Shown piece after piece: positions 22,625-30,201 of a DNA stretch of 32,634 nt (its first letter is position 1; the number at the start of each line of letters is the position of its first letter). The stretch spans positions 1 through 32,634 of the forward strand of contig WHSM01000009.1 of NCBI GenBank assembly GCA_009380105.1, in the 5' to 3' direction. The stretch comes from Micromonosporaceae bacterium (lineage in GTDB: Bacteria > Actinomycetota > Actinomycetes > Mycobacteriales > Micromonosporaceae). Under the pieces are notes generated by a model, which was not told where the DNA came from, did not search any database, and saw only the letters and a list, made by a program, of their open reading frames with translations. Position numbers and translations under genes: made by a program.

Positions 22625-23368
22625 TCACTCCCCCGCGTCGTACCCCGCGGCGGCGGGCCTGCGGCCGCGGCCGCGGAGCAGCGCCGCGGCGCCGAGCGCG
22701 AGTCCCGCGAGACCGGCGACCAGGCCCGCGACAGCGAGCCACATCGGCGCGCCGGTCTCGGCCGGCGTGGCGGGGTGCTCCTTCGCGGCCGGCTGCTCGT
22801 CGCCGGCGTCGTCGGGGGCGCCGTTCTCGGCCGGCGGGGGAACCAGCCGCAGCACCGGCGCGGGGTGCTCGGGCTCGTCCCCCTCGGTGTGCTCCTCGAT
22901 CCAGCGCACCACTTCGTCGTTGTCATAGGTCTGGATCGTCTTGAAGACGAGCTGGTCGACCTCAGGCAGGGGGCCCAGCGACACCGGGAACTCCTGGAAC
23001 TCGTTCGGCTTGACCTCTGCGCCCTTGGACGCGGTCCAGGTGATCGTCCCGACCACTTCCTCGATCTTGCGACCGTGCAGGTCGAGCGGCTCGTCCAGCT
23101 TCCGCATGGCGATCTTGACGTTCCAGCCGGGCACCGGAGTGGTCAGCACCGAGGCGATCGGGTGGTCCTCCGGCATGTGCACTTCGAGCTTGACGGTGTT
23201 GGCGTTGTCGCGCTCGTTCGGCATCCGGAACGCCACCCTGGCGTATCCGCCCTGCGCGGCGTCCTGCGGATCCACGGTGACATGCGCCGCCGCTGGGGCG
23301 GCGAATCCGGCGGCTCCGACGAGCGCGGCGGCGCACGCCGCGACCGCGCCTCGGACGAACCTGCTCAT
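22625..23368 (-). CDS. ycnI: YcnI-like copper-binding membrane protein (DUF1775)
   Basis: A 247-residue exported protein. A Sec signal (about 1-28, ending AAPAAA) is followed by AHVTVDPQDA, whose His would be the mature N-terminal copper ligand as in YcnI, then the DUF1775 beta-sandwich (ARVAFRMPNERDNANTVKLEVHMPEDHP, VVGTITWTASKGA) and a C-terminal membrane anchor (about 216-238, WLAVAGLVAGLAGLALGAAALL) with an RGRGRR stop-transfer. GGAAGGGAA precedes ATG 23368. It lies 33 nt downstream of copC-copD in the same direction, so it belongs to the copper operon. Confidence 0.92.
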   Translation of the reverse strand: MSRFVRGAVAACAAALVGAAGFAAPAAAHVTVDPQDAAQGGYARVAFRMPNERDNANTVKLEVHMPEDHPIASVLTTPVPGWNVKIAMRKLDEPLDLHGRKIEEVVGTITWTASKGAEVKPNEFQEFPVSLGPLPEVDQLVFKTIQTYDNDEVVRWIEEHTEGDEPEHPAPVLRLVPPPAENGAPDDAGDEQPAAKEHPATPAETGAPMWLAVAGLVAGLAGLALGAAALLRGRGRRPAAAGYDAGE

Positions 23369-23401
23369 GCTGTTCCCTTCCTAGGTGTGCTCACTGTGGG
23401 A

Positions 23402-25117
23402 CTAACGAACCCGGACCGTGGTCTTCACGGTGGCCTGGTCGATCTCGGAGATCCGCAGGGTGAACCGGAACACCCATCGCCCCGCCTTGGGAAGCCCGAT
23501 CCGGCCGGTGGCGTGGTCGCCGGTCACAGCGACCACTGGCACGTCGACAGCAGCGATCCCCGCGGACGGCAGCGCCGCTGTCACCTTCCATTCGAGCACC
23601 TTCAACGGCTTGCCGCCCGGCGTCGCGGCGTACAGGCGGACCTGGTTGTCGCCGACCCTGGCGGGGTCGATCTCGATCCGGAGGGTGTAGAGCTTGTGGC
23701 TGAGCTCCGCCTGGCGGCTTCCGGTCGGCTGCGCCGCGGCGTTGGCGGCTGCGTCGGTACGCGCCGGAGTGGTCTGCGTCAGCACGGCGGTCACCGCGAG
23801 CACGACAGCGGCAAGGGTGAGCTCGACGGCGACCAACCGACGCAGCGCGCCCCCGCGCGTCGGGGCCCCAGGCGGGGGATCAGGCGCCGGGGCGCCCGCC
23901 GGGCCCGGCGACGGGGCGCCACGCGCGAGGCGGCGGGCGAAGGACGCCGCCGCCAGGATCGCCGCGAGCAGCCCGGCCTTGGCCAGCACCAACAGGCCGT
24001 ACCGGCTGGTGACCAGGGCGTCCAGCGTCCGCACCTCGATCACCGCCTGAGCGACGCCGGCCAACGCCAGCACCGCGACCGCGCCCATCGCCACCTTCGA
24101 CCAGGTGCGCAGCCACGGCGGCAGGGCTTCGGCGAGCGCCTCGCGGGCGCTGCGCCGGAGCAGCAGCCCGACCAGCACCAACAGGCCGCCGAGCCAGACG
24201 CTGGCCGCGGCCAGATGCGCCACGTCCAGCAGTACCGACAGCCACGGCAGCGGCGACCCGGCCGGGTGCCCGGACAGCGGCCACGTCAGCAGCGCCGCCA
24301 CGCCGACGCCGGCCAGCAGACCCTGGTCCCGCTTGGTCGGCGTACCGCGGGACACTCGCCGCAGCAACGGCACGGCAGCCGCGAGCAGCGCGAGCCGGGC
24401 GAGGTGGGCGTAGCCGTACCGGCTGTCGACCACGGACAGCACATCGGAGCCGCGCAGGTCCGACAGGCCGCCGCCGAGCAGATACGGCGCCTGCAGCACC
24501 ACCTCGGCGACCGCTGGCGCCGCGACGAGCACGATGCCGCCGGTCGCCAGACGCCCCGGGCCACGCCGGGACAGCCGCGCGGGCCATCCGACGGCGAGCG
24601 CGCCGAGGCCACCGAGGAGGGCTACAAGCCCGGCATATCCGGCGTATCGCATCACGGCCAGCAACGTGACGACGACCGGATCGTCGCCGTCCTGGGCCTC
24701 CTGAGCCGGCGCGGCCGAGGGCGCGCCCACCGAGAACGAGAACCCTCCGCTCACCGGGTGACCGTCGGCGGAGATGACCCGGAAGCTCACCAGGTACGTG
24801 CCGCGGGGGGCGCCGGAGCGCAGCGGAATCCGCAACCGCTCGCCGGAGACGCGGGCCCCGCCCCGGTCGGCGCGGGCGCCGTTCGGGCCGATGATGCGCA
24901 CCTGGTCGGCCACCGCCTCCACCGGTTCGGAGAAGGTGAGCACCACCTGCTCCGGCGGGACCTCCACCACCGCGCCCTGGCCCGGTGACGTGCGCAGCAG
25001 CGCCGCGTGCGCCGCCGCAGGACTCGCCGGCGCCAGGGCGAGCACGATCCCGGTGATCACGCCAAGCAGCACGATCCAGCCCGGCGCGAACCAGCGCTGC
25101 GTGAGCGGGGCGCTCAT
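23402..25117 (-). CDS. CopC-CopD fusion copper-handling protein
   Basis: A 571-residue polytopic protein. After a signal or first helix (FAPGWIVLLGVITGIVLALA) the extracytoplasmic CopC domain begins at AHAALLRTSPGQGA (N-terminal His ligand about 38) and ends with SADGHPVSGGFSFSVG, another conserved ligand region. A CopD-type membrane domain of about eight helices follows (GYAGLVALLGGLGALAVGW..., DVAHLAAASVWLGGLL), and then a C-terminal extracytoplasmic FixH/YtkA-like domain (LYTLRIEIDPARVGDNQVRLYA). Such fusions bind Cu at the envelope and pass it inward. Start ATG 25117 overlaps the anti-sigma stop as ATGA, so the 25171 start is rejected. Confidence 0.9.
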   Translation of the reverse strand: MSAPLTQRWFAPGWIVLLGVITGIVLALAPASPAAAHAALLRTSPGQGAVVEVPPEQVVLTFSEPVEAVADQVRIIGPNGARADRGGARVSGERLRIPLRSGAPRGTYLVSFRVISADGHPVSGGFSFSVGAPSAAPAQEAQDGDDPVVVTLLAVMRYAGYAGLVALLGGLGALAVGWPARLSRRGPGRLATGGIVLVAAPAVAEVVLQAPYLLGGGLSDLRGSDVLSVVDSRYGYAHLARLALLAAAVPLLRRVSRGTPTKRDQGLLAGVGVAALLTWPLSGHPAGSPLPWLSVLLDVAHLAAASVWLGGLLVLVGLLLRRSAREALAEALPPWLRTWSKVAMGAVAVLALAGVAQAVIEVRTLDALVTSRYGLLVLAKAGLLAAILAAASFARRLARGAPSPGPAGAPAPDPPPGAPTRGGALRRLVAVELTLAAVVLAVTAVLTQTTPARTDAAANAAAQPTGSRQAELSHKLYTLRIEIDPARVGDNQVRLYAATPGGKPLKVLEWKVTAALPSAGIAAVDVPVVAVTGDHATGRIGLPKAGRWVFRFTLRISEIDQATVKTTVRVR

Positions 25118-25770
25118 GCGGCCCGTGGTCGGACCGCGAGGCGACTGCCGCCGTCGCGACTCAATCCCCACATCAGCCCGGCCTGCAACACCACCAGGCC
25201 GTGCCCCACCTCATGCAGCAGCGTGGTGCGAGCGCTGAGCAGGTCGATGCCGCTGGTCACGGTGAGGAACGCCGCCAACACGATGGCGACCGGAGCGAGC
25301 GCCCGCGCCCGCTCCGGGAAGCGCGCCACAAGGAGGAAGCCCACCGCCACCGCGATGTCGAACGATGCGTCCTCTCGCCCTGCGTGCAGCCCGTGCCCGT
25401 GTCCGAAGTGGAGCGACGGAATCCCGAGCAGCTCGGGCACCGCGAGCACGATCTGCGTCACGGCGATCACCGCGACCGTCCAGCGCAGCCAGGTCGTCTT
25501 CGCACGCCCCCGAACGCGTGTGGCGGCGACCTGACCGGCGCCGGCGCGTGCGGCCGCGTCGGCCGACACGGCGGCGAGCACCCGCTCGGTCAGGTCCGGC
25601 GCCTCGACCGACCGCGCCCGCACCGATCGGGTCACCTGTTCGGCCCGCGCCTGCCACGCCCGGCACTCCGGGCACCCGGCGACATGCCGGATCGCCGCCT
25701 GGGCGGGCATCGGCGGATCCTCACCGTCGAGCAACGCGGACAACGCCGCACGGACCTGTTCGCATTCCAT
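25114..25770 (-). CDS. Zinc-finger anti-sigma factor with four membrane helices, candidate metal sensor
   Basis: A 218-residue protein. The N-terminal ZAS (zf-HC2) domain has Cys3 and HVAGCPEC (His29, Cys33, Cys36; HxxxCxxC), which in this family clamps an ECF sigma factor. Four helices follow (about 93-112, 135-151, 157-174, 181-203). The loop after helix 1 contains HFGHGHGLH (His121, 124, 126, 129), and helix 4 opens with LLHEVGHG (His186, Glu187, His190), both predicted on the outer face. It is divergent from an ECF sigma gene and overlaps copC-copD (ATGA). I infer sensing of copper or another metal at the envelope, releasing the sigma factor. HEVGH matches HExxH formally, but no protease fold is recognisable. 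Confidence 0.82.
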   Translation of the reverse strand: MECEQVRAALSALLDGEDPPMPAQAAIRHVAGCPECRAWQARAEQVTRSVRARSVEAPDLTERVLAAVSADAAARAGAGQVAATRVRGRAKTTWLRWTVAVIAVTQIVLAVPELLGIPSLHFGHGHGLHAGREDASFDIAVAVGFLLVARFPERARALAPVAIVLAAFLTVTSGIDLLSARTTLLHEVGHGLVVLQAGLMWGLSRDGGSRLAVRPRAA

Positions 25771-25776
25771 GCATGG

Positions 25777-25806
25777 ATAGTCGTCACAGGAAGCGGCGCG
25801 GTTCCC
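25777..25806 (-). promoter_or_regulatory. ECF-type promoter of the anti-sigma/copper operon
   Basis: On the minus strand GGGAACC (25806-25800), 16 nt, then CGACTAT (25783-25777) fits the GGAAC-N16-CGNC pattern of ECF sigma promoters, and the ATG follows 6 nt later. It implies that the operon is transcribed by the adjacent sigma factor. Confidence 0.55.
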
Positions 25807-25873
25807 GCGAGTTCGCCCATACCGGCAGCGCGGCGCTTTCCTTCGCGCGGCGGGCTACGTACCCTCGATCCTC

Positions 25874-26539
25874 GTGGCTTTGCTGGAGCACTCGGATCAC
25901 AGCGCGCGCCCCGGAGACGCCGCGGCGCCGCGCCCTCCGCGCGCTGTGGCAAACGTCTCCGCGGACACGGCGCCACCCGACCCGGCAGTGCCGGACACCG
26001 CGCGACCAGACCCGGCCGGGCGGGATGTCGGGACGCAGTGGGCCATCGCCGCCGCGCACGGCGACCCGGTCGCGCAGGCCGCGTTCGTGCGGCACACCCA
26101 GGCCGGGCTGTGGCGCCTGGCCGCGGCGCTGGTCGAGCCGTCGGCGGCCGACGACCTCGTGCAGGAGACGTACCTGCGCGCGTTTCGGGCGCTGCCGTCG
26201 TTCGAGGCTCGTGCGACCGCCCGGACCTGGCTGTTCGGGATCGCGCGGCGGGTGTGCGCCGACCATCTGCGGGCGGTCACGCGGCGGCGGCGCCTCGAAG
26301 CCCTGCTGTCCCGGCAGCGCGCCGCGACGCAGGAGCCGGATCCCGCCGGCGCGGTCGGGGCCGCCGACCTGGTCAGGGCGTTGGCCCCCGAGCGGCGCAG
26401 CGCGCTGGTTCTCACCCAGGTGATCGGCTTGTCGTACGAGGAGGCCGCCACTGTGGAGGGCGTGCCGATCGGCACGATCCGGTCCCGGGTGGCACGCGCC
26501 CGCGCAGACCTGATCAAGGCGTTGGGCGACACCCGCTGA
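25874..26539 (+). CDS. ECF RNA polymerase sigma factor of the copper module
   Basis: A 221-residue group-4 sigma factor. After a Pro/Asp-rich N-terminal stretch (about 1-50), region 2 (QAAFVRHTQAGLWRLAAALV, ADDLVQETYLRAFRALPSF, ARTWLFGIARRVCADHLR) and region 4 (LAPERRSALVLTQVIGLSYEEAATVEGVPIGTIRSRVARARADLI) are complete. It is probably held by the divergently encoded zinc-finger anti-sigma factor and expected to drive the copCD-ycnI operon. GTG 25874 is preceded by TACCCT (25860-25865) at 8 nt, suggesting a leaderless transcript. Mycobacterial SigC is a distant comparison; I do not assign that name. Confidence 0.9.
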   Translation: MALLEHSDHSARPGDAAAPRPPRAVANVSADTAPPDPAVPDTARPDPAGRDVGTQWAIAAAHGDPVAQAAFVRHTQAGLWRLAAALVEPSAADDLVQETYLRAFRALPSFEARATARTWLFGIARRVCADHLRAVTRRRRLEALLSRQRAATQEPDPAGAVGAADLVRALAPERRSALVLTQVIGLSYEEAATVEGVPIGTIRSRVARARADLIKALGDTR

Positions 26540-26594: not shown

Positions 26595-27437
26595 TTACTG
26601 GCTGTGGCGCGGGCGCCAGACGGTGAGGTAGCACGACGCGGTGACCGTGATCTCGCTCGGCAGCTCCGCGATCCGCGCGGCCAGGGCCCCGGGCGCGGCG
26701 TGCCACGCGCTCGGCCCCATCCTGACCAGCGCGGCCACGGCGTCGTGGTCCAGGCGCAGTGTCCGGTCCCGGAGCGACCGGCGTTGGAAGAAGAAGCAGT
26801 CGCCGAGCGTCTCCGCCAGTCGGCGCTCCTTGGCCTCGTCCACAGTCAGCAGATCCAGCAGGTCGACCAGTTCGGCGAGATGGCGGTCGGTCGGCGTCAC
26901 CGTCAGCAGTCGGCCGCCCGGCGCGAGGATCCGGCGGAACTCCCCGCAGTTGCGGGGCGCGAAGACGTTCAGCACGAGAGCCGCGGCCCCGTCGGCGACC
27001 GGCAACGGCCGCCAGAGATCGGCGCCGACCGCGCCGATGCGGGGGTGGGCGCGGGCGGCGCGGCGGAGCGCGTACGCCGAGGAGTCCAACGCGACGCCGC
27101 TCGCCGCGGGGCCGAGCCGGTCCAACACGGCCGCCAGGTAGAACCCGGTGCCGGAGCCGGCGTCCACGACGCGCCTCGGAGACCGCCCGACGTCCGCGGC
27201 CTCCTCGGCGACCGACTCGGCGAGCCAGTCGTAGTGCCCGGCGCCGAGGAACTCCTCCCGCGCGGCGACCATCGCGCCCGTGTCCCCGGGCGCCGCGAGG
27301 CCGGAGAGCAGCGTGACGTAGTCCTGCTTCGCAATGTCGTACGAGTGCCCGACCGGGCACCGCAGGGCCTGCCCGTGCCGCGTCAGCGGCCCCGCGCAGA
27401 TTGGGCACCTCAACGCGTCAGCCACGTCGTCAAGCAT
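26595..27437 (-). CDS. rlmA: 23S rRNA (guanine-N1) methyltransferase, RlmA/TlrB type
   Basis: A 280-residue SAM-dependent methyltransferase. An N-terminal zinc ribbon (CPICAGPLTRHGQALRCPVGH; CxxC-x-CxxxH) followed by SYDIAKQDYVTLL is diagnostic of RlmA/RrmA and TlrB, which methylate G745 or G748 in 23S rRNA helix 35. The SAM motif is VVDAGSGTGFYLAAVLDRLG; the NVFAPRN segment is also typical. The actinobacterial clade often includes TlrB, linked to macrolide tolerance, but that phenotype cannot be predicted. ATG 27437 overlaps the end of nikO by 8 nt, so it is probably the last gene of the transporter operon. Confidence 0.9.
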   Translation of the reverse strand: MLDDVADALRCPICAGPLTRHGQALRCPVGHSYDIAKQDYVTLLSGLAAPGDTGAMVAAREEFLGAGHYDWLAESVAEEAADVGRSPRRVVDAGSGTGFYLAAVLDRLGPAASGVALDSSAYALRRAARAHPRIGAVGADLWRPLPVADGAAALVLNVFAPRNCGEFRRILAPGGRLLTVTPTDRHLAELVDLLDLLTVDEAKERRLAETLGDCFFFQRRSLRDRTLRLDHDAVAALVRMGPSAWHAAPGALAARIAELPSEITVTASCYLTVWRPRHSQ

Positions 27438-28308
27438 CCACGCCTCGCGCGGCGCTCCGCTGCGCGGGGTCCTCGGCCGCGCCGCGGGTGGAGTCCTCGA
27501 GCGCGCCGCGCGCGGTCAGCTGGGACGCCGCCAGCGCCGGGTCGAAGCCGTACGGCAGCTCCAGCCGGTGCGCGGCCAGCAGCGCGGTGTCGGCGAGCAG
27601 CGACCCAGTCGGCCCGTCGGCGACGATCCGCCCTTCGTCGAGGATCACCGACCGGGGGCACAGCTCCAGCGCGTACGGCAGATCGTGGGTGACCATCAGG
27701 AGCGTCACCGGCAGGTCGCGCAGGATGTCGGCGAGCTCCCGGCGACTGGCCGGGTCGAGGTTGCTGGAGGGCTCGTCGAGCACCAGGATCTCCGGCCGCA
27801 TCGCGAGCACCGTGGCGACGGCGACCCGCCGCCGCTGCCCGTACGAGAGGTGGTGCGGCGCCCGGTCGCGGTGCTCGTGCATGCCCACCGAGCGCAGCGC
27901 CTCGTCCACGCGCGAGTCCAGGTCGGCGCCTCGCAGGCCGAGGTTGGCCGGCCCGAACGCCACGTCCTCTGCGACCGTGGGCATGAAGAGCTGGTCGTCG
28001 GGATCCTGGAAGACGATCCCGACCCGGCGCCGGATCTCGGCCAGCTGCGCCTTCTCGACCCGCAGGCCCGCCACCTCGACACGACCCGGATCGTCGCCGG
28101 GCGCGCCGGCGGCCCCAGCCCCGCCGGCAGAGCCGGCCCCGCCCAGGATTCCGTTCAGGTGCAGCACCAGCGTGGTCTTGCCGGCGCCGTTCGGCCCCAG
28201 CAGCGCCACCCGCTCCCCCGGCGGGATCGTCAGATCGACGCCCCGCAGCGCCACGTGACCGTCCGGGTACGCGTAGCTCACCCCTTCGACGAGCAGCGAG
28301 GCGGTCAT
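27430..28308 (-). CDS. nikO: ECF transporter ATPase (NikO/CbiO)
   Basis: A 292-residue ABC ATPase powering group I ECF uptake of Ni2+ or Co2+. Walker A GPNGAGKTTLVLHLNG, signature LSYGQRRRVAVATVL, Walker B EILVLDEPSSNLDP and the H-loop TLLMVTHDLPYAL are complete. A Gly/Ala-rich insertion (GGAGSAGGAGAAGAPG) follows the Walker A helix, an unusual low-complexity expansion. About 60 extra C-terminal residues are poorly conserved. ATG 28308 overlaps nikQ (ATGA), giving tight coupling. Nickel is preferred because of the Nur-type operator upstream of nikM. Confidence 0.9.
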   Translation of the reverse strand: MTASLLVEGVSYAYPDGHVALRGVDLTIPPGERVALLGPNGAGKTTLVLHLNGILGGAGSAGGAGAAGAPGDDPGRVEVAGLRVEKAQLAEIRRRVGIVFQDPDDQLFMPTVAEDVAFGPANLGLRGADLDSRVDEALRSVGMHEHRDRAPHHLSYGQRRRVAVATVLAMRPEILVLDEPSSNLDPASRRELADILRDLPVTLLMVTHDLPYALELCPRSVILDEGRIVADGPTGSLLADTALLAAHRLELPYGFDPALAASQLTARGALEDSTRGAAEDPAQRSAARGVDA

Positions 28309-29081
28309 GACATGAATACTGCCCTGCCCGCGGCGACGGCGAGCACGAGCCCCGCCGCGACGGGCAGCGCCAGCGCGGCCGACCACTGCGCGAGGCCGGG
28401 GCCGGGGCCGTACAGGGCGGGCAGCCGACCGGTGTACCCGCGCGAGACCATCGCCAGATACACCCGCTCACCGCGCTCGAAGGCGCGCAGGAACAGCGCA
28501 CCGGCGCCGACCGCGAAGCCACGGGCCTGCCACAGGAATCGCGGCGAGTCGCCGCGGGAGATCCGGGCGATCCGCATCCGCCGTGCTTCGGCGGCGAGCA
28601 CTTCGGCGTACCGCAGCATGAATGTCACGATCTGGGTCACGACGGCGGGGCACCGCAGCCGGTCCAGGCCGAGCACGAGGTCGCGCATCTGGGTGGTGGC
28701 CGCCAGCAGGAGTGACGACAGCACGCCCAGAGTGGCCTTGGCGACGATGTTCCAGGCGCCGAGCAGGCCCTCGACGGAGAGCGAAAGCCCCAGCCAGTCC
28801 ACGCGCGGCCCGGAACCCAGGAACGGCAGCAGCACGGCCAGCACCACGAACGGCGCCTCGATCAACGAGCGGGTCGCAAGCCACCACGGGGAGACCCGGG
28901 CGGCGAAGGCCACGCCGAGGAGCAGCAGCAGATAGACCCCGAAGGCCCAGAACTCGGTCCGCGGTGTGAGCACCATCAGCACCGTGAAGCCGACGGACGC
29001 GACGATCTTCACCTCGGGCGCCAGCCGGTGCACAGGCGACGACTGGTCCAGGTACAGCGGATGGCTGTGCCCGCCGGCCAT
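28305..29081 (-). CDS. nikQ: ECF transporter T component (NikQ/CbiQ)
   Basis: A 258-residue transmembrane coupling protein. The N-terminus MAGGHSHPLYLDQSSPVHRLAPEVKIVASVGFTVL is typical of CbiQ; about five helices are visible, and the cytoplasmic coupling helices carry ARRMRIARISRG and AFERGERVYLAMVSRGYTG, the conserved Ala-Arg-Gly-type motifs that contact the ATPase. It starts at ATG 29081, overlapping the stop of the small N component (TGATG). Confidence 0.92.
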   Translation of the reverse strand: MAGGHSHPLYLDQSSPVHRLAPEVKIVASVGFTVLMVLTPRTEFWAFGVYLLLLLGVAFAARVSPWWLATRSLIEAPFVVLAVLLPFLGSGPRVDWLGLSLSVEGLLGAWNIVAKATLGVLSSLLLAATTQMRDLVLGLDRLRCPAVVTQIVTFMLRYAEVLAAEARRMRIARISRGDSPRFLWQARGFAVGAGALFLRAFERGERVYLAMVSRGYTGRLPALYGPGPGLAQWSAALALPVAAGLVLAVAAGRAVFMS

Positions 29082-29452
29082 CAGCGCGACGCTTCCGCGC
29101 GCTCGGCGTCGGTCTCGCGGCGCGGCTCGGGTCGCCGTCGCGCCAGCCGGAACACCACGGCGCCGATCCCGAACACCAGCAGCACCCCGACCACCCCGGC
29201 CAGGCCGGTGGACAGGCGCGGGTTGTCGATCCCGGCGACGCCGTAGTCGGCCAGCGGCCCGCCGACCTCGTGCTCCCGGGCGTCACGCGCCATGCACTCC
29301 CCGCCGGCGATCTCGTCGCCGGAGTAGCGGCAGCCTTCCCTGGTGACGCTGTCCAGGCCGTCGGGATCGGAGGACGCGAGGTTGCTCGCCAGTCCCGCGA
29401 GCAGCAGCGACACCAGCAGACCGGCGAGCAGGAACCATCGGGTCCGGCTCAC
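29081..29452 (-). CDS. nikN: PDGLE-domain small component (NikN/CbiN-like)
   Basis: A 123-residue protein with two membrane helices (RWFLLAGLLVSLLLAGLAS near the N-terminus; LAGVVGVLLVFGIGAVVF near the C-terminus) and the DPDGLDSVTREG segment that defines the PDGLE family, the small partner of NikM/CbiM. The extracytoplasmic loop contains two Cys (GCRYSG, GECMAR). GTG 29452 overlaps the nikM stop (GTGA), with GGGGAG upstream, so the ORF-track start at 29632 is rejected. Confidence 0.88.
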   Translation of the reverse strand: MSRTRWFLLAGLLVSLLLAGLASNLASSDPDGLDSVTREGCRYSGDEIAGGECMARDAREHEVGGPLADYGVAGIDNPRLSTGLAGVVGVLLVFGIGAVVFRLARRRPEPRRETDAERAEASR

Positions 29453-30165
29453 GACGCGCTCCCCGCGCCCACCGCGACAGGAGCCTTTTCGGGGGTACGC
29501 CAACCAGCCTGACGCAGCGCGTGCACCAGATCGGGTCGCACCCGGGCCACGGCGACCACAGTGATCGCGGTGATGAGCCCTTCGCCGATCCCGATCAGCA
29601 GATGCGTGCCGCCCACGGCGCCGGCCACCCAACCCAACGGCATCGGGGCGACGCCGCCCAGGGCGTACTGAAGCACGAAGCCGAACGCCGCCGCCACCAC
29701 GCTGAGCAGGCCGGCGACGAAGGCGGTCACGGACAGGCCGGCGATCGTGCGCGGCAGCACGCGCAGCAGCAGCGCGATCACGCCGTAGGCGGCGACCGTG
29801 CCGACCAGGGCCATGTTCCCGATGTTGAGGCCGAGCGCGGTCACGCCTCCGTCCGCGAACACGAACGCCTGCACGATCAGCACGATCGACACGCAGAGCG
29901 CGCCGGCCCAGGGGCCGACCAGCAGCGCCGCGAGCGCGGCGCCGAGCAGGTGCCCGCTGACGCCGGGAAAGACGGGGAAGTTGAGCATCTGCACCGCGAA
30001 GATGTACGCCGCGACCAGGCCCGCCATCGGCGCGAGCCGCTCGTCGAGGTCACGCCCTGCCCGCTTGACGCAGACGACGAGCGCCACCACGGCGATGCCG
30101 AGGTACGCCAGCCAGACCGGCGCGTTCACGAGGCCGTTTGCGATATGCAGCGCCACCGGATCCAT
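29449..30165 (-). CDS. nikM: Nickel/cobalt ECF transporter substrate-binding subunit (NikM/CbiM)
   Basis: A 238-residue membrane subunit with about six to seven helices, the substrate-capturing S component of a NikMNQO/CbiMNQO system. The conserved GVSGHLLGAALAALLVGPWAGALCVSIVLIVQAFVFADGGVTALGLNIGNMA region is present (quoted motif: FADGGVTALGLNIGNMA). The family usually begins Met-His, which ligates the metal; here the corresponding His is in MDPVALHIANGL (His7), so the N-terminus is extended. Start 30165 is supported by TAGGCT 7 nt upstream; the 30201 ORF-track start would lie inside the promoter. Confidence 0.9.
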   Translation of the reverse strand: MDPVALHIANGLVNAPVWLAYLGIAVVALVVCVKRAGRDLDERLAPMAGLVAAYIFAVQMLNFPVFPGVSGHLLGAALAALLVGPWAGALCVSIVLIVQAFVFADGGVTALGLNIGNMALVGTVAAYGVIALLLRVLPRTIAGLSVTAFVAGLLSVVAAAFGFVLQYALGGVAPMPLGWVAGAVGGTHLLIGIGEGLITAITVVAVARVRPDLVHALRQAGWRTPEKAPVAVGAGSAS

Positions 30166-30172
30166 GGACCGA

Positions 30173-30201
30173 AGCCTATTACCGGTGACTTGCTCTTGCA
30201 A
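30173..30201 (-). promoter_or_regulatory. nikM promoter
   Basis: On the minus strand TTGCAA (30201-30196) and TAGGCT (30178-30173) are separated by exactly 17 nt and followed 7 nt later by ATG 30165, predicting a leaderless nik mRNA. The -35 is half of the Nur-type box. Confidence 0.6.

Follow-up and report, generated by a model that had tools for sequence, protein, structure and literature searches.

The window analyzed here is a stretch of 32,634 nucleotides from a Micromonosporaceae bacterium (contig WHSM01000009.1). Between positions 22625 and 26539 it carries a gene for an extracytoplasmic function (ECF) sigma factor and, divergent to it, a row of three genes for an anti-sigma factor with four predicted transmembrane (TM) helices, a CopC-CopD fusion protein, and the copper-binding protein YcnI, which together form a putative copper-limitation switch related to the SigC system. 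The features are as follows.

25874..26539, plus strand: ECF sigma factor, SigC-type, 221 amino acids as called (Pfam Sigma70_r2 and r4_2 above cut-off)
25778..25806, minus strand: sigmaC-type promoter GGGAAC-N17-CGACTA, before the anti-sigma gene
25114..25770, minus strand: anti-sigma factor with a cytoplasmic zf-HC2 part and a four-TM domain, 218 amino acids
25660..25764, minus strand: zf-HC2 (Pfam PF13490), putative sigma-binding zinc-finger part (C3, H29, C33, C36)
25393..25410, minus strand: loop-1 histidines H121, H124, and H126
25384..25386, minus strand: H129 codon, start of TM2, predicted outer face
25372..25374, minus strand: E133 codon, one turn into TM2
25243..25245, minus strand: D176 codon, outer end of TM3
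25201..25203, minus strand: H190 codon, start of TM4
23402..25117, minus strand: CopC-CopD fusion protein, YcnJ-like, 571 amino acids (Pfam CopC 88.8 bits, CopD 60.6 bits, both above cut-off)
22625..23368, minus strand: YcnI (DUF1775) copper-binding protein (Pfam DUF1775 171.4 bits, above cut-off)

An initial annotation of this sequence had named the ECF sigma factor, the anti-sigma factor, copCD, and ycnI, and these identities are confirmed by the Pfam matches. The HxxxCxxC clamp that it described in the anti-sigma factor is confirmed as well: zf-HC2 scores 36.9 bits against a cut-off of 22.2, with H29-x3-C33-x2-C36 and the upstream C3. Among PDB entries, the anti-sigma profile matches RsiW best, and the protein does not reach the family cut-offs for RsrA (21.4 versus 62.5 bits) or ChrR (14.4 versus 124.5 bits). 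Because the ATG of the CopC-CopD gene overlaps the anti-sigma stop codon by 4 nucleotides (nt), the anti-sigma, CopC-CopD, and YcnI genes appear to form an operon-like row. In the CopC-CopD fusion the first CopC residue is H37, and the protein scores below the NCBIfam equivalog cut-offs for both CopC and CopD. The combination that marks a YcnJ/YcnI pair, CopC and CopD in one protein with a DUF1775 partner, is found here at Pfam cut-offs. The start of the sigma gene is uncertain because the first ~48 residues of the 221-residue call are poorly conserved. The C termini of the anti-sigma factor (25114-25122) and its homologues frequently end in -AA, which we discarded as evidence since it may simply result from the way the gene runs into the following one at ATGA.

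Conservation of the four-gene unit

A search of named genomes with an anti-sigma profile built from a closer set (A2) found homologues in Actinomycetota only, mostly in Micromonospora and its relatives. A 26-row profile (A1) was used to search ~300 genomes of the phylum, in which there were many short, zinc-finger-only matches; the full-length matches and a few partial ones were followed. We took 40 homologues with flanks of up to 7 kb and scored a further 51 named genomes in which the anti-sigma gene is linked to copCD. In most of the copCD-linked loci among the 40 homologues, a divergent sigma gene lies beside the anti-sigma and CopC-CopD genes, mostly followed by YcnI, and the same divergent four-gene order is present in nearly all of the 51 further genomes, short or broken contigs aside. 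The overlap with copC-copD and the divergent orientation reported in the initial annotation are real, the latter being kept in most copCD-linked loci examined. The phylum sample contains more distant copies, some of which carry the YcnI gene on the opposite flank of the anti-sigma gene. At one locus (L058), the anti-sigma factor and CopC-CopD are in a single frame of 808 amino acids, which we treat as supporting evidence only, since a one-base assembly error could mimic a single frame. Based on these results, we conclude that the four-gene unit is a real, widespread, and conserved module of Actinomycetota and no one-off. CbiQ-like genes lie near the anti-sigma gene in 36 of 120 loci, including the mycobacteria-like loci L075 and L141, in each of which an orphan anti-sigma gene is two genes from a CbiQ-like gene; in the window, cbiMNQO-like cobalt/nickel uptake genes are at 27430-30201 (minus strand), 1 to 4 kb from the sigma gene.

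A sigmaC promoter and a probable SigC partner family

GGGAAC-N17-CGACTA lies directly upstream of the window anti-sigma gene, with its -10 element ending 7 nt before the ATG, and is the only exact copy of this promoter within the window. In a scan of 120 homologous loci for this promoter, the best match per locus is exact in 75 and has at most one mismatch in 98, compared with 0.13% of mononucleotide shuffles at the same threshold. The spacer length is 17 in 107 of 110 cases. In 83 loci, the distance from the end of the -10 element to the start codon is 7 nt, for which reason the mRNA of the anti-sigma operon is probably near-leaderless. The promoter is identical to the consensus elements of the Corynebacterium glutamicum sigmaC promoter (-35 GGGAACT, -10 CGACTA [PMC5483222, citing Toyoda and Inui 2016]). 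Because of this match, the window sigma factor very likely reads the sigmaC promoter and drives its own anti-sigma gene together with copCD-ycnI. A conserved sigmaC promoter directly upstream of the operon thus supports the earlier proposal that an envelope anti-sigma/ECF pair controls these genes.

The sigma factor itself has M. tuberculosis SigC as its best PDB match (2o7g, E = 1.4e-21). In a phylogenetic tree, the anti-sigma-linked ECF sigma factors, including the SigC part of the mycobacterial fused proteins, form one clade of 40 rows (support 89/83, which is below the level starred by the tree tool, with the bootstrap not settled), and the 16 ECF paralogues from the window's own genome that were included in the tree fall outside it. 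The window protein scores 140.6 bits against the NCBIfam SigC equivalog cut-off of 219, and because its score is below the cut-off, we classify it on sequence grounds as a SigC-type (ECF36-like) relative and not as SigC itself.

The anti-sigma family can be followed into mycobacteria, where 42 of 149 Mycobacterium-like genomes have an anti-sigma factor and then SigC in a single reading frame, which in 39 of the 42 is free of internal stops. Two of these single-frame anti-sigma/SigC fusions, from mycobacteria-like genomes, are located as follows.

L139:5287-6660, minus strand
L142:5983-7356, plus strand

The L142 frame sits between a gene for a BlaC-type beta-lactamase (blaC) and cobK, and its C-terminal sigma half passes the NCBIfam SigC cut-off (363 versus 219 bits). 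No sigmaC promoter was found upstream of the fused gene in either of these two cases. At a further locus, L260, from a 3.3-Mb genome, the anti-sigma homologue adjoins a gene for a copper-type P-type ATPase, and a PPE gene is preceded by a sigmaC-like site, GGGAAC-N17-CGACCA. This arrangement resembles the ctpA-Rv0093c-ppe1 region of M. tuberculosis, and the homologue is presumably orthologous to Rv0093c. Based on the natural fusions and the divergent neighbors, we conclude from sequence comparison that this family is probably a SigC partner family. The initial annotation did not recognize the module as a described system, a view that does not stand: the sigma factor groups with SigC-type proteins, the operon promoter agrees with the published C. 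glutamicum sigmaC consensus, and a sigC-Rv0093c fusion of unknown function in the M. avium complex is in print (PMC7563442). The module is better described as akin to the SigC copper-deprivation system than as an unknown system.

Exact copies of the promoter also occur elsewhere in related genomes and suggest a wider regulon. Among 40 such copies, 30 have copper-acquisition or related genes within 1.4 kb downstream (counted as CopC-CopD, YcnI, CtaG/CopD, PCuAC, PepSY_TM, HupE/UreJ, MauE, Dyp peroxidase, or an ECF gene), compared with 0 of 24 one-mismatch sites in the window's own genome. This contrast is indicative, because the count of 30 partly uses queries from those same loci and the control set comes from one genome only. 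The names PepSY_TM, HupE/UreJ, MauE, and Dyp peroxidase are not copper specific. The window's genome has a second exact sigmaC promoter (G000:C265:248-276, L221), which lies upstream of genes for a lipoprotein-like protein and a membrane protein, the latter with no match in Pfam.

The predicted outer-face site of the anti-sigma factor

An AlphaFold model of the anti-sigma factor has helices at residues 93-115, 128-150, 152-178, and 184-206 (mean pLDDT 87.7, pTM 0.57). The initial annotation placed two His-rich sites on the same outer face, a HGHGLH loop and a HEVGH motif at the start of helix 4, and this placement agrees with four predicted TM helices following a cytoplasmic zinc finger. In the model, helices 2, 3, and 4 carry H129, E133, D176, and H190 at what are predicted to be their outer ends.

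Conservation separates the residues of the proposed sites. Among the 51 named copCD-linked homologues, H129, R132, E133, D138, and H190 are each present in 51, D176 and E187 in 50, and H186 in 44, while H121, H124, and H126 are present in none. Co-conservation with copCD, which had been suggested as a check, thus holds for H129, H190, E187, and largely for H186, and fails for the other three histidines; the HGHGLH loop is not a conserved site, and we rejected the His-rich loop as the sensor. E133 and D176 had been overlooked. Over the whole family, H129 is found in 117 of 119 members, D176 in 115 of 118, and H190 in 116 of 118, and position 133 is E, D, or H in all 119 members scored. A140, H129, H190, and D176 show the highest conservation of all residues beyond the zinc finger (effective sample, 56 sequences). 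The His/Glu/Asp/His cluster is predicted on the outer face and hardly varies among diverse homologues, which makes it plausible that the anti-sigma factor senses metal directly.

Of 121 aligned family members, 115 have the zinc-finger residues (C3, H29, C33, and C36), which are missing from those that lack the finger. Among the five members without a zinc finger (L148-L152), three keep all four site residues and L150 and L152 each lack one; L148-L151 adjoin an ECF sigma gene. Within paralogous group 2, 15 of 24 members have an HxH motif in loop 1.

Copper limitation as the proposed signal, and alternatives

The genes and their conserved order, the promoter, the fusions to SigC and to CopC-CopD, and the conservation of the site, all observed in silico, are the basis of the following scheme, in which we infer sigma binding, metal binding, the direction of the response, and the mechanism of release. 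The SigC-like ECF sigma factor would be held in the cytoplasm by the zf-HC2 portion of the membrane-embedded anti-sigma factor. Copper would occupy the H129/E133/D176/H190 site as long as the envelope contains enough of it, the site would be empty under scarcity, and the empty site would lead to release of the sigma factor. The freed sigma factor would transcribe the anti-sigma/CopC-CopD/YcnI operon from GGGAAC-N17-CGACTA, CopC-CopD and YcnI would capture copper and take it up for respiratory oxidases, and fresh anti-sigma factor from the same operon would act as a brake. In relatives, the sigma factor may also drive other copper-acquisition genes. We propose this polarity, with bound copper keeping the sigma factor held and its loss freeing it, because known SigC systems counter copper shortage: SigC keeps M. 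tuberculosis from becoming copper starved (PMC7924339), and the C. glutamicum sigmaC regulon is activated by copper deprivation (PMC7337898). YcnJ and YcnI are copper-uptake proteins, and YcnJ, the CopC-CopD protein of Bacillus subtilis, is an importer that supports heme-copper oxidases under copper starvation (PMC13344008). We put the probability that the whole module is a SigC-type (ECF36-like) copper-limitation switch with the four-TM anti-sigma factor as its candidate sensor at roughly 0.6.

Several results weigh against this reading, in addition to the SigC score below cut-off and the limits of the regulon count given above. A Foldseek search of the PDB with the anti-sigma model gave no significant match to a solved fold. 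Position 129 is R in L051 and L055, and L052 lacks D176 and H190, and all three keep the promoter. Nine Corynebacterium-like homologues (L246-L254, genus inferred) lack H129 and the sigmaC promoter, and all but one have lost H190; they also lack copper neighbors, and several adjoin a DoxX-like gene. Over all promoter-scored loci, site and promoter are both present in 107 and both absent in 13, and one occurs without the other in 19, a tally that is inflated by the relatedness of the loci. To judge from these sequences, the site cannot be the sensor of sigmaC in Corynebacterium, because it is lost where copper deprivation reportedly activates sigmaC. In C. glutamicum, moreover, the stimulus is described as possibly a defect in oxidase electron transfer and not copper itself (PMC7337898).

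This last point leads to the main rival, that respiratory-chain status (heme, menaquinol, or a failing cytochrome aa3) is sensed instead of copper directly, with the His/Glu/Asp/His cluster binding heme or quinone. In C. glutamicum, the response appears when copper is lacking or the insertion of heme a is disturbed (PMC7337898), and the regulon candidates include CtaG/CopD and Dyp peroxidase. Two His residues on neighboring helices near the membrane face could ligate heme, but carboxylates, as at positions 133 and 176, are unusual as heme ligands. Across the phylum, moreover, the operon partners are copper-binding proteins and not heme or quinone enzymes, and we consider this explanation unlikely.

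We regard as distinctly improbable a response to excess copper (or zinc), in which metal at the outer site releases the sigma factor and copCD-ycnI serves resistance. A copper-binding anti-sigma factor could release its sigma factor upon binding, the names CopC and CopD derive from resistance operons, and in a few cases (L182 and L199, judged from translations) a promoter copy is no more than ~2.6 kb away from a CsoR or copper-ATPase-like gene. However, YcnJ and YcnI are uptake proteins (PMC13344008), the regulon candidates are mostly uptake or oxidase-assembly genes, and the characterized sigmaC systems considered all point to copper limitation (PMC7924339, PMC7337898), which also speaks against the initial annotation if it meant a response to metal excess. 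That cobalt or nickel is the signal is very improbable: the CbiQ-like neighbors in 36 of 120 loci, including the two mycobacteria-like loci with orphan anti-sigma genes, and the cbiMNQO-like genes of the window would favor it, but most of those 36 loci are from close relatives and the neighborhood may be inherited, the sole exact promoter in the window belongs to the anti-sigma operon, and the partners in that operon are copper proteins.

The anti-sigma factor offers a candidate for the sensor of copper shortage in SigC systems, including those of tuberculosis-type bacteria. One anti-sigma family across Actinomycetota is tied to the sigmaC promoter and copper-uptake genes, and four candidate residues can be named. 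It is a tentative suggestion, which we would not yet favor, that the four-TM domain represents a novel type of envelope copper sensor whose outer-face His/Glu/Asp/His site reports copper shortage directly to a SigC-type sigma factor and that the mycobacterial member, Rv0093c, is the missing SigC regulator. In the literature searched, no anti-sigma factor of this kind is described as a copper sensor, and there is no account of the family's copper link or membrane site; the SigC/Rv0093c fusion itself is known.

Among known systems, the module resembles mycobacterial SigC/Rv0093c, with which it shares the sigma clade, the anti-sigma family, natural in-frame fusions, and a copper-acquisition regulon (PMC7924339, PMC7563442). 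The mycobacterial system differs in grouping with paralogous group 2 rather than with the copCD-linked branch, in its targets (ppe1-nrp and ctpB), and in having no sigmaC promoter upstream of either fused gene examined. The C. glutamicum sigmaC regulon has the same -35/-10 consensus and is likewise activated by copper limitation (PMC5483222, PMC7337898), whereas the Corynebacterium-like anti-sigma homologues are without the His/Asp site, the promoter, and the copper neighbors. B. subtilis ycnKJI encodes the same copper-uptake pair of CopC-CopD (YcnJ) and YcnI, but under the repressor YcnK instead of an ECF sigma/anti-sigma pair. The zf-HC2 (ZAS) anti-sigma factors RsrA, ChrR, and RsiW share the HX3CX2C zinc-finger fold that clamps ECF sigma factors, whereas the window protein adds a four-TM candidate sensor domain with no significant match to a solved structure. 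Metal-responsive ECF control is also exerted by CnrYXH of Cupriavidus and CorE of Myxococcus. CnrH relies on a separate periplasmic sensor, CnrX. CorE senses metal via its own Cys-rich extension (PMC8999054). In contrast to both, the candidate sensor here is the membrane domain of the anti-sigma factor.

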